NCBI GenBank assembly: GCA_020847545.1
Contig: JADLBV010000022.1
Span: 1-64,000 of the forward strand
Length of the DNA stretch: 64,000 nucleotides
Direction: 5' to 3'
From: Phycisphaerales bacterium
GTDB taxonomy: Bacteria; Planctomycetota; Phycisphaerae; Tepidisphaerales; Tepidisphaeraceae
Each line of letters starts with the position of its first letter. Position 1 is the first letter of the stretch. Shown here piece after piece: positions 32,491-36,344 of the stretch. The position numbers were made by a program, and so were the translations under genes. Below the pieces are notes generated by a model. It was not told the origin of the DNA. It made no database searches and saw only the letters and a program-made list of their open reading frames with translations.

Positions 32491-33987
32491 ATGCGGCGAT
32501 ACTTTCCCGATCTCGAAACATTTACCCAACAAGCGCAATCAGCGCAACTGATCCCCGTCTATCGCCAGCTTCTGGGCGACCGTCTAACCCCCGTCAGCGC
32601 CTTTGAGGTGCTGGGCCGGGATGAACATGCGTTTTTGCTCGAATCGGTCATCGGCGGCGAAAAGATCGGCCGATACAGCTTCATCGCCACCGGCCCATCG
32701 CTGGTCTATCAGGCGGCCGGCGGGCGGGCCTCGGTCCAACAAGCCGGCCAACCGCCGCACGAATTTGACACCACCGACCCATTGGCCGACCTGGCCCGGC
32801 TGCTGCCCCCCGTACGCTATCACCACAATCCCGCCCTTCCCGCCTTCACCGGCGGCTTGGTTGGTTACGCGGGATACGACACCATCCGCTATTACGAAGG
32901 TGAAAAACTCACCCAACCACCAAAGGATGACCGCCGATTGCCGGATGTGCTGTTTGGTCTGTATGGCGAGCTGGTGATCTTCGACCACGTTGACAAAACG
33001 ATCAAAATCGTCGCCAACGCCGACTTACGGTTAAATCCTGACCCACAAACGGCTTATAACCATGCCTGCCGGCGGATCGATCAGATCGTCTCCCGGCTGG
33101 CACAGCCCCCATTGTCCGGCCTGGGCGAAATAGACCCGCGCTCCCCGTTGACGTTGAAGTTTGAATCCAATTTCACCCGCGAAGCATTTGAGCAGGCCAT
33201 TGAAGCTGGAAAACAGTACATCCGCGCGGGGGATATTTTCCAATTCGTCCCCAGCCAGCGACTGCGGGTTTACAGCCAGGCCGATCCGTTTGATGTTTAT
33301 CGCGCGCTGCGGATCATCAACCCATCCCCCTTCATGTTTTACCTCAAAAGCCCGGCCTGCACGCTGATCGGCTCCAGCCCGGAGATTCTCTGCCGGGTTG
33401 CCGACCGCCGCGTCACCAGCAGGCCATTGGCCGGCACCAGAAAACGGGGATCCACGCCGCAGGAAGATCAGGAGCTTGAAAAGGAACTGCTGGCCGACCC
33501 CAAGGAACTCGCCGAACACATCATGCTGGTGGACCTGCACCGCAACGACATCGGCCGGGTGGCCCGCGTTGGCAGTGTCGAGATCAGCGATGTCATGACC
33601 GTGGAGCGATACAGCCATGTCATGCACATCACCTCCAACGTCACCGGCACGCTGGATGATCCGTACACCGCATTGGACGCCCTTCGGGTGTCGCTGCCGG
33701 TTGGGACCGTGAGCGGCGCGCCAAAAGTCCGCGCCATGCAGATCATCGACGAGCTGGAACCGACCCGTCGGGGCCCTTATGGCGGCGCGGTGGGTTATAT
33801 CGATCTGGCCGGCGACATGGACACCTGCATCGCATTGCGCACCATCGTCTGGAGATCGGGCGTCTTTGATGTGCAGGCGGGCGCGGGAGTCGTGGCCGAT
33901 TCGGTCCCATCATCGGAATATGAGGAGACCATGAACAAGGCCAAGGCGTTGCTCAAGGCGGTGGAGATCGCGCAAAACGGGTTCTGA
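32491..33987 (+). CDS. trpE: Anthranilate synthase component I
   Basis: TrpE converts chorismate to anthranilate with TrpG, the first step of tryptophan synthesis. The product has 498 residues. It shows the N-terminal LLESVIGGEKIGRYSFI region (with the tryptophan-feedback LLES-type motif), then GGLVGYAGYDTIRYYE, SSPEILCR, RPLAGTRKRG, LVDLHRNDIGRVA and LPVGTVSGAPKVRAMQIIDE. TACAAT at 32477-32482 lies 8 nt before the ATG, which suggests a leaderless start. trpG is not in the window. Confidence 0.96.
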   Translation: MRRYFPDLETFTQQAQSAQLIPVYRQLLGDRLTPVSAFEVLGRDEHAFLLESVIGGEKIGRYSFIATGPSLVYQAAGGRASVQQAGQPPHEFDTTDPLADLARLLPPVRYHHNPALPAFTGGLVGYAGYDTIRYYEGEKLTQPPKDDRRLPDVLFGLYGELVIFDHVDKTIKIVANADLRLNPDPQTAYNHACRRIDQIVSRLAQPPLSGLGEIDPRSPLTLKFESNFTREAFEQAIEAGKQYIRAGDIFQFVPSQRLRVYSQADPFDVYRALRIINPSPFMFYLKSPACTLIGSSPEILCRVADRRVTSRPLAGTRKRGSTPQEDQELEKELLADPKELAEHIMLVDLHRNDIGRVARVGSVEISDVMTVERYSHVMHITSNVTGTLDDPYTALDALRVSLPVGTVSGAPKVRAMQIIDELEPTRRGPYGGAVGYIDLAGDMDTCIALRTIVWRSGVFDVQAGAGVVADSVPSSEYEETMNKAKALLKAVEIAQNGF

Positions 33988-33988
33988 C

Positions 33989-35137
33989 ATGCCGGCGACA
34001 TCGTGGGAACATTTTGAGCGGTATCGACAAAAGGGCCTCGACGCCCGCCGGGCCGGGCAATGGGAGTCGGCTCGAATTTATCTGTTGGAAGCTGCCCGTT
34101 CGATGGTCGCGCTCAGCAAGGAGGCCCAGAGCGAGGAATTGCGCAGCGCCCGACAGGAAATCGCCTCCAAATTGCTGGAACTGGGCCGCGATTGCGAGTC
34201 GGCCAACAATGAAAAACGCCGGGCGCCGGCAATGCGCGGTTCAGCCTCCAATCGCGAGGAATCCTCCGAATCCGAAGGAGCAAAGGATGTCCAGCAATGG
34301 ATCGTCCGCGAAAAACCCAAATTGCGTTTTGATGATGTGGCCGGCCTGGAGGAGGTGAAGCAGGACATTCGCCTCAAGATGATTTACCCATTTGAGCATC
34401 CGGAACTGGCCGAGCGGTTTGGCATCCGTCCCGGCGGCGGCGTTTTGCTGTACGGCCCACCCGGCACGGGCAAGACGATGCTGGCCAAGGCGACCGCCGG
34501 CGAGATCGATGCGACATTTTTCCGCATCTCACCGGCCGATGTTCTCAGCAAATGGGTGGGTGAGGCCGAACAGAACATCAAAAAACTGTTCGACGCCGCC
34601 GCGGGCGAAAAACGGGCGATCATCTTCATCGACGAGATCGAGGCGCTGGTCCCCGCCCGCCGCGATGAAGGCTCCAGTGTCATGCAGCGGGTGGTGCCGC
34701 AGATTTTGCAGGGGATGGAAGGGTTTGACGAAAAGGCCATCAGCCCGATTCTGTTCATGGGGGCCACCAACGTCCCCTGGCAACTGGACCCGGCCGTGCT
34801 GCGGCCCGGCCGATTCGACGAAAAAGTCTACATCCCCCTGCCGGACCTCCCCGCCCGCATGAAAATGCTCGAAATCTACCTCTCCCACCGCCCTCTGGCC
34901 GATGACATCCAACTGGACGACCTGGCAAAACAACTCGACGGTTACAGCGGCGCCGACATCAAATACATCTGCGACCGCGGCGCCACCGTCCCCTTTTTGC
35001 AATCCGTCGCCACCGGCCAGGAAGGCCAAATCACCGACAAAATCCTCTCGGATGTCATCACCGACACCCCCCGCTCCGTCACGCCGCAAATGCTGGAACG
35101 ATTCGACCGCTGGATGCGGGAAGCAAGTACGGCGTGA
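33989..35137 (+). CDS. Vps4/katanin-like AAA ATPase with an MIT-like N-terminal domain
   Basis: The product has 382 residues. Residues about 5-70 are three helices with the pattern of MIT domains (HFERYRQKGLDARRAGQWES, then ARIYLLEAARSMVALS). A polar linker (71-105) leads to the AAA core: LRFDDVAGLEEVKQDIRLKM, Walker A YGPPGTGKT (155-163), the ILSKWVGEAE-like VLSKWVGEAEQNIKKLF, Walker B IIFIDEIEAL (211-220) and GATNVPWQLDPAVLRPGRFD. This order is that of eukaryotic and archaeal Vps4, which takes apart membrane-remodelling polymers. It starts 1 nt after trpE. A partner protein is not evident. Confidence 0.88.
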   Translation: MPATSWEHFERYRQKGLDARRAGQWESARIYLLEAARSMVALSKEAQSEELRSARQEIASKLLELGRDCESANNEKRRAPAMRGSASNREESSESEGAKDVQQWIVREKPKLRFDDVAGLEEVKQDIRLKMIYPFEHPELAERFGIRPGGGVLLYGPPGTGKTMLAKATAGEIDATFFRISPADVLSKWVGEAEQNIKKLFDAAAGEKRAIIFIDEIEALVPARRDEGSSVMQRVVPQILQGMEGFDEKAISPILFMGATNVPWQLDPAVLRPGRFDEKVYIPLPDLPARMKMLEIYLSHRPLADDIQLDDLAKQLDGYSGADIKYICDRGATVPFLQSVATGQEGQITDKILSDVITDTPRSVTPQMLERFDRWMREASTA

Positions 35138-35245: not shown

Positions 35246-35350
35246 TTGTTTCATGGTAAACTGACATACATGGAACGCCTGAAATCAGTGCTGTCGTCGA
35301 ACTTGCGTGGTGCGGCGGTCAACCTCAGTCCAAACCGAAAAGTAACATGA
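35246..35350 (+). CDS. Short ORF or relic upstream of the AbiEii-type gene
   Basis: A frame of 34 codons from TTG (35246, GGAG at 35231-35234) or of 26 codons from ATG (35270) ends with TGA overlapping the next start (ATGA). The same frame is open from the AAA stop (35137) onward, 71 codons without a stop, and reads like a real protein C-terminus (SGVQDNLFHGKLTYMERLKS). It may be a small coupled gene, or the remains of the antitoxin that normally precedes AbiEii. Not recognised. Confidence 0.35.
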   Translation: MFHGKLTYMERLKSVLSSNLRGAAVNLSPNRKVT

Positions 35351-36009
35351 AGACGATTGACCCGCTTGCGGAAGCGATCCTTCTTGAACTCTCACATCGA
35401 CCGGAGAGCAGTGAGATTGTTCTTGGAGGGTATTTTGCTTTGCGCCAATATGTTGACTACCGCGCTACTCATGACATTGACGCATGGTGGAAGTCGCGAG
35501 CGGACTCGAACGCGGAGAATGCCATTCGCGATTCCATGCGGAATGTGGCAATCGACAAAGGCCTGGAACTGCAAGAGCGACGATTCGGTGAAACCTTGTC
35601 ATTCGAGTTGAGTCGAAACAAGCAGAAGGTGTTCTCCTTCCAGATTGCGGTGCGTTCGGTGGAATTGGAACGGCCGCAAACAAGCGCCTGGCCTCCGATT
35701 CTGATCGAAACCTTCGTGGACAATGTAGCGTCAAAGATGAACGCGCTGGTGGACCGAGGCTCCCCACGGGATTTTACTGATATCCACCAGTTGGTGCAGG
35801 CCGGCCTGATTCAGCCCGAAATCTGTTGGCAACTTTGGGAGCGGAAAAACCCCGATGCGGGAACAAGCGATTCCGCCAAAACGAAGGTTCTGCTGCATTT
35901 GCAATCCCTTGAACAACGTCGTCCACTCGGCAGTATTATTGATAACGCCGATAAACAGAGGGCTTCAACCGTTCGCCACTGGTTCAAGGAGATATTCTGC
36001 AAACCATGA
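35347..36009 (+). CDS. Nucleotidyltransferase of the AbiEii/AbiGii toxin family
   Basis: The product has 220 residues. The nucleotidyltransferase-like start ILGGYFALRQY-type (IVLGGYFALRQYVDYRATHD) and IDAWW give the family pattern of a Gly-rich helix followed by TxDID-like acids (ATHDIDAWW), and ASKMNALVDRGSPRDFTDIH is the DUF1814 C-terminal signature. Relatives are toxins of type IV toxin-antitoxin or phage-abortive systems and act by nucleotidyl transfer. The GC content is lower than in neighbours, which suggests acquisition. The start overlaps a short upstream ORF and the stop overlaps the next gene. Confidence 0.8.
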   Translation: MKTIDPLAEAILLELSHRPESSEIVLGGYFALRQYVDYRATHDIDAWWKSRADSNAENAIRDSMRNVAIDKGLELQERRFGETLSFELSRNKQKVFSFQIAVRSVELERPQTSAWPPILIETFVDNVASKMNALVDRGSPRDFTDIHQLVQAGLIQPEICWQLWERKNPDAGTSDSAKTKVLLHLQSLEQRRPLGSIIDNADKQRASTVRHWFKEIFCKP

Positions 36010-36344
36010 GTACGCCCATCGACCATAGCGTCTATCCCGATTTGGATCGACCGCCGAGCGAGCTTGAATCCGCTGAGGCGAAAGCGGACTACATTCATCG
36101 AATCTGTTCGGCGTGGGATTTCGGCATTCAACCTGAACCCGCAACATTCAATTTATTCTCACAATGGCGGGAGGTGTTTGACCGCTTTCCGATTGTCACA
36201 TCACCGGCCTATCATACCTTCCGCAGTTGGTTTGGATGGCCGTCGGTTCCGATCCCAACCGGTCTGCCCAAACCCACACTGCGGTGGGAACATCTCGATC
36301 GGCTTGAAGGCAGACCGCCCGATCCATGCGACGGCATGATCTAG
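36006..36344 (+). CDS. Unknown protein coupled to the AbiEii-type gene
   Basis: The product has 112 residues. Its ATG overlaps the toxin stop (ATGA), so it is co-translated with it. The sequence is acidic, rich in Pro and Trp, with no membrane segment; FNLFSQWREVFDRFPIVTSP is the most structured part. No family is recognised. Its place suggests a partner (possibly antitoxin) of the nucleotidyltransferase, but AbiEi antitoxins normally lie upstream and contain a winged helix, which is not seen here. Confidence 0.65.
   Translation: MSTPIDHSVYPDLDRPPSELESAEAKADYIHRICSAWDFGIQPEPATFNLFSQWREVFDRFPIVTSPAYHTFRSWFGWPSVPIPTGLPKPTLRWEHLDRLEGRPPDPCDGMI

Follow-up and report, generated by a model that had tools for sequence, protein, structure and literature searches.

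Planctomycetes have unusual membranes, and the locus described here raises the question of whether one of them encodes a Vps4-type ATPase together with an ESCRT-III-like polymer on which it would act. In a 2024 survey of ESCRT, systems that combine Vps4 with ESCRT-III were confined to archaea and eukaryotes; the ESCRT-III superfamily polymers and relatives already known in bacteria are PspA and Vipp1 (PMC8281802).

The window, by which we mean the whole analysed stretch of 64,000 nucleotides from a Phycisphaerales bacterium (family Tepidisphaeraceae), contains a gene that the first-pass annotation had described as N-terminal helices followed by a linker and a SKWVGE-type AAA core. The same annotation noted a Vps4/katanin-type layout and assigned the helices to an MIT-like domain from pattern only.

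The ATPase gene and its surroundings

The open reading frame begins with ATG and encodes 382 amino acids plus a stop. From the N-terminus, the protein comprises a domain of three helices, a short linker and a single AAA module, as follows.

33989..35137, + strand: putative Vps4-like MIT-AAA ATPase gene (open reading frame, orthologues, AAA tree)
33989..34222, + strand: predicted N-terminal MIT-like three-helix domain, residues 1-78 (AlphaFold2, fold searches, hhalign to the archaeal Vps4/CdvC MIT profile)
34223..34300, + strand: linker, residues 79-104 (pLDDT < 50 at residues 77-101; variable in the orthologue alignment)
34301..35134, + strand: AAA module with ATPase domain, lid and C-terminal helix, residues 105-382 (Pfam AAA, structural match)
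34454..34477, + strand: Walker A GPPGTGKT, residues 156-163 (invariant in orthologue alignment A2)
34550..34564, + strand: pore loop 1 KWVGE, residues 188-192 (invariant in A2)
34619..34636, + strand: Walker B IIFIDE, residues 211-216 (sequence; 212-216 invariant in A2)
34763..34789, + strand: sensor-1 region ATNVPWQLD, residues 259-267 (sequence; ATNxPWxxD form)
34802..34813, + strand: arginine-finger region RPGR, residues 272-275 (invariant in A2)
35075..35125, + strand: C-terminal helix SVTPQMLERFDRWMREA, residues 363-379 (model helix H366-381; S363, V364 and F372 invariant in A2)

The reading frame, the Pfam AAA match (E 5.1e-40) and the AlphaFold2 model confirmed the succession of helices, linker and SKWVGE-type core. 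The Walker A and B motifs, the arginine fingers and the aromatic pore loop 1 are all present as invariant columns of alignment A2, and the ATN-PW-LD motif is conserved alongside the Walker motifs, KWVGE and RPGR. Orthologues across the phylum keep the whole architecture at about 42-92% identity, and this conservation places the architecture far beyond chance. Within the window's own family, 18 of the 26 genomes, the window's included, encode an orthologue with the N-domain, as do five other genomes sampled from the class. Across the phylum the ATPase family was found in 38 of 392 sampled genomes, mostly at 44-55% identity.

The gene upstream is trpE (anthranilate synthase component I, 32491-33987); its end is two bases from the start of the ATPase gene, with which it is probably co-transcribed. 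A genome of the same genus (G001) has a gene comparable to trpE in length and position. Downstream, at 35347-36344, a nucleotidyltransferase-like protein of 220 aa overlaps a 112-aa open reading frame, and the two are perhaps a toxin-antitoxin-like pair. As neither the trpE gene nor the nucleotidyltransferase-like gene is conserved context, we drew no functional reading from the neighbours in the window.

The N-terminal domain and the AAA module

AlphaFold2, given the ATPase with ten orthologues, predicts helices at residues 6-21, 25-44 and 49-78, with a mean pLDDT of 90 for the N-domain. The top Foldseek matches were mostly MIT domains (VPS4B, katanin p60, Vps4p, MITD1), with TM scores of about 0.75-0.86 for most of them (0.81-0.86 for the VPS4B and katanin MIT domains) and every E > 0.05. 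The best VIA match was the MIT domain of katanin p60 (Z 12.6, rmsd 1.3-1.4 over 76-77 residues), and TPR rows reached Z 11.4. Fold scores separate small helical bundles poorly. Given the Foldseek E values and a TPR Z score so near that of MIT, the fold evidence alone is suggestive.

For a profile test, 48 planctomycete N-domains were compared by hhalign with Thermoplasmata, crenarchaeal and yeast MIT sequences. The archaeal and yeast MIT sequences aligned with a probability of 95.7 and a score of 43.9. None of 60 column shuffles exceeded 17.2, and the reversed profile and a TPR profile scored 15.6 and 12.5; the score fell to 20.9 when only the two non-Thermoplasmata MIT sequences were used. 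Pfam MIT is the best match of the bridging archaeal N-domains (E 1e-4 to 7e-3). The Pfam MIT model does not detect the N-domain of the ATPase, and the N-domains of Thermoplasmata Vps4/CdvC proteins likewise fall below its gathering score. Searching the PDB with the N-domain profile (hmmsearch) recovered no MIT domain, and TPR_2 is a sub-threshold Pfam match of the domain (E 0.07-0.2). Taken together, fold search and profile-profile comparison support a predicted MIT fold. The earlier assignment was thus borne out with the Pfam MIT model silent, and structure prediction gave MIT as the closest fold, not one unlike it.

We assessed the subfamily of the AAA module with NCBIfam models, structure comparison and phylogeny. 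The NCBIfam scores were 241 bits for CDC48, 231 for PAN, 226 for CdvC and 197 for FtsH. The CdvC alignment extends almost to the end of the protein, and its 226 bits compare with an equivalog cut-off of 650; all these scores are far below the cut-offs and so do not by themselves settle the subfamily. In structure comparison the full model came closest to Metallosphera (M. sedula) Vps4 (Z 29.3), and p97 D2 followed closely. In an AAA tree of 68 rows (LG+C20 PMSF), the ATPase family shares a clade (100/93) with Vps4, crenarchaeal CdvC, katanin, fidgetin-like and Thermoplasmata Vps4-like proteins, apart from CDC48 D1/D2, PAN and FtsH, and it lies closest to Thermoplasmata Vps4/CdvC proteins (93/76). 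AU tests rejected a grouping with CDC48-D2 (p 2.1e-5) and one with PAN and FtsH (p 4.1e-4). These results support classification of the ATPase as a Vps4/CdvC-type single-AAA-module protein. The layout proposed in the first-pass annotation holds, and the placement with FtsH or proteasome ATPases that it had named as contrary evidence was not obtained.

The protein might instead be a general CDC48/VAT-type unfoldase in which one ring has been lost and a TPR-like helical adaptor acquired, and which extracts diverse clients. This would fit a CDC48 score slightly above that of CdvC, the weak TPR_2 match and the near tie of p97 rows with Vps4 in structure comparison. However, CDC48-D2 is excluded by both the tree and the AU test, and the N-domain profile favours MIT over TPR by 43.9 to 12.5. 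The unfoldase reading also makes the link to the protein family B, described below, incidental, whereas B both adjoins and co-occurs with the ATPase. We consider it very unlikely.

Reference letters for the eukaryotic, crenarchaeal and VAT proteins were taken from PDB alignments, and at sensor 1 they read GATNIPWQLD in yeast Vps4, GATNKPWRLD in CdvC and AATNFPWDID in katanin. The ATPase resembles eukaryotic Vps4 (yeast Vps4, VPS4B) in its predicted MIT fold, KWx pore loop, ATNxPWQLD motif and C-terminal helix. It differs in keeping RPGRF where eukaryotic Vps4 has RRRF, and in the absence of the beta-domain insert that precedes the C-terminal helix of the eukaryotic protein: 382 aa leave no room for such an insertion, and the model contains no such element. 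The crenarchaeal CdvC proteins (Acidianus, Metallosphera; 4lcb, 4d80) include the top structural match of the AAA module, from M. sedula, and show the ATNKPWRLD motif, whereas the score on the CdvC equivalog is low, as given above. The Thermoplasmata Vps4/CdvC proteins, which belong to minimal ESCRT systems (mBio 2024, PMC10936438), likewise combine an N-terminal MIT-like domain with one AAA module, and the nearest three are 35-38% identical to the ATPase over nearly the full length. One of them (L073) has an Snf7 gene about 5 kb away on its contig.

Another planctomycete AAA family (L053, L054, L055, L056), with a TPR-like N-terminal region, also sits inside the Vps4 clade, where it groups beside the Thermoplasmata Vps4-like proteins L129, L135 and L136.

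The ESCRT-III-like partner and its distribution

In other planctomycete families the ATPase orthologue has a conserved neighbourhood. At 16 loci a protein of about 200 aa (family B) is encoded 5' of it on the same strand, mostly within about 300 bp. The order on one strand is C, A or D, B, ATPase and, in most loci, F, where C is about 480 aa with a C-terminal coiled coil, A or D is a coiled-coil protein of about 200 aa, and F is a beta-propeller-like protein of about 600 aa. The F protein (L169:10498-12408 and equivalents), with its beta-propeller-like C-terminus, follows the ATPase in most loci outside the Tepidisphaerales; beside the ESCRT operon of the window's family none was found. An SPFH-like N-terminus of F and a winged helix in C, both read by eye, received no Pfam confirmation.

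The Pfam Snf7 model matches 12 of 16 members of family B (best E 2.7e-6, with the full model covered in the member shown). Against the PDB, eight of the nine matches of the B profile were ESCRT-III chains (CHMP3, CHMP2A, SNF7), CHMP3 at E 4.7e-4. An archaeal Snf7 protein was matched at 7.9e-9 in a small local set, which scales to 5e-5 for 100,000 sequences. In hhalign, B aligned with CHMP3, CHMP2A and the archaeal protein at 96.5% probability with a score of 66 over 142 collinear columns. The controls scored 19 (best of 60 shuffles), 18.8 (coiled-coil family A) and 13.8 (E. coli PspA). By these four comparisons, family B is an ESCRT-III homologue, closer to Snf7/CHMP than to PspA, and in this it differs from the PspA/Vipp1 polymers of bacteria. 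Family A was also considered as ESCRT-III and was dropped, as A and B do not align.

The tail of B contains the acidic stretch SDEEIDRMI, which is conserved, and after it a short amphipathic helix. Strict MIM1 motifs were seen in 7 of 69 B partners (shuffle mean 0.2), most of them in lineages closely related to one another; given this limited range, we make no general claim about MIM motifs.

In the window's family the ATPase is unlinked from the B operon, and in the window's lineage it sits next to trpE; the partner in the window's own genome was found only via the gene neighbourhoods of distant orthologues. It lies on a contig other than that of the ATPase (G000:C33:23103-23678, E 1.5e-70). 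Taken alone, this B protein has no Snf7 match; its homology is seen through the family. The operon (L203:4455-10209, equal to G000:C33:17954-23708) encodes, in order, a small hydrophobic protein, a Ser/Thr kinase with zinc ribbons (Pkinase 2.1e-39), a zinc-ribbon protein, a 308-aa protein, C, A and B. The hydrophobic stretches of the small operon proteins are likely transmembrane, and the coiled-coil proteins, kinase and small hydrophobic proteins are probably regulators or membrane adaptors. The Pfam MIT, PspA and Snf7 models gave no matches in this genome. Of the partners suggested in the first pass (PspA/Vipp1/ESCRT-III-like proteins), an ESCRT-III/Snf7-like protein was therefore recovered through its family and PspA/Vipp1 was not. 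Compared with the Thermoplasmata systems, the planctomycete system is bacterial; its conserved locus includes the coiled-coil families A or D and C and, in many loci, the beta-propeller-like protein downstream; and in the window's lineage the ATPase is kept apart from the operon.

We compared the distribution of the two genes. Among 61 relatives, 21 encode both, 2 the ATPase only, 4 B only and 34 neither (Fisher p 2.1e-10); the corresponding counts for 392 genomes of the phylum are 34, 4, 22 and 332 (p 1.1e-29), and both p-values overstate the association because related genomes are not independent. Many of the genomes with one gene and not the other are incomplete MAGs. One family (f41) accounts for 16 of the 22 B-only genomes, and six sampled genomes of that family encode, near B and D and on the same strand, a different AAA ATPase and no MIT-AAA protein. 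This second, divergent Vps4-like AAA ATPase near family B is represented by L246:7176-8414 and, at L169, by a gene about 1.8 kb upstream of the MIT-AAA gene. Contamination is rejected, since genomes that consist of a single contig (G013, G027, G059) have the pair and it occurs phylum-wide.

These data bear on two further readings. The ATPase could be a severing enzyme of the katanin or spastin kind whose substrate is a bacterial cytoskeletal filament, with B a soluble coiled-coil filament and not a membrane polymer. Katanin p60 MIT domains are the best VIA matches of the N-domain, katanin and fidgetin share its AAA clade, and the ATNxPWxxD form is common to katanin. Its nearest relatives are nevertheless the Thermoplasmata Vps4/CdvC proteins, and the contig of one of these also carries an Snf7 gene. 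The filament candidate B aligns with ESCRT-III, and the window's own genome has no FtsZ match; we regard severing as very unlikely. That the ATPase, kinase and coiled-coil proteins form an anti-phage or stress signalling complex without membrane scission, as the Ser/Thr kinase and zinc-ribbon proteins of the operon and a weak score (108 bits) on the anti-phage ATPase model IteA might suggest, is extremely unlikely, the IteA score being far below its cut-off of 510 and the phylum-wide, order-conserved inheritance being unlike that of mobile defence loci.

Proposed function and meaning

The gene product is very probably a bacterial ATPase of the Vps4 type that serves to recycle an ESCRT-III-like polymer. 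In the mechanism we propose, the MIT-like N-domain would dock on the C-terminal helix or tail of the ESCRT-III-like B protein and so recruit the ATPase, and the AAA modules would assemble as a hexamer on the B polymer. The KWV pore loops would then pull B subunits through the pore and unfold them, by which a membrane-bound B polymer would be remodelled or dissolved. Candidate cellular roles are inner-membrane shaping, repair, vesicle formation and division without FtsZ. No FtsZ model match over the cut-off was found in any of 61 genomes (the window's own and 60 relatives), with the pair present or absent. ESCRT as a general replacement for FtsZ is unsupported, nearly all relatives being without an FtsZ match whether or not they have the pair.

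We found no earlier report of a bacterial Vps4, or of ESCRT or MIT in Planctomycetota, in the open-access literature. It seems probable to us that Planctomycetota have a genuine bacterial ESCRT machine, in which an MIT-AAA Vps4 orthologue and a Snf7-type ESCRT-III, with a kinase and coiled-coil partners of their own, would remodel internal membranes or aid FtsZ-less division. If so, a Vps4/ESCRT-III pair with its own locus in many planctomycete families would overturn the view that such systems are confined to archaea and eukaryotes, and would bear on the origin of ESCRT. The unusual membranes of planctomycetes, and their division without FtsZ, would also gain a protein basis open to testing.
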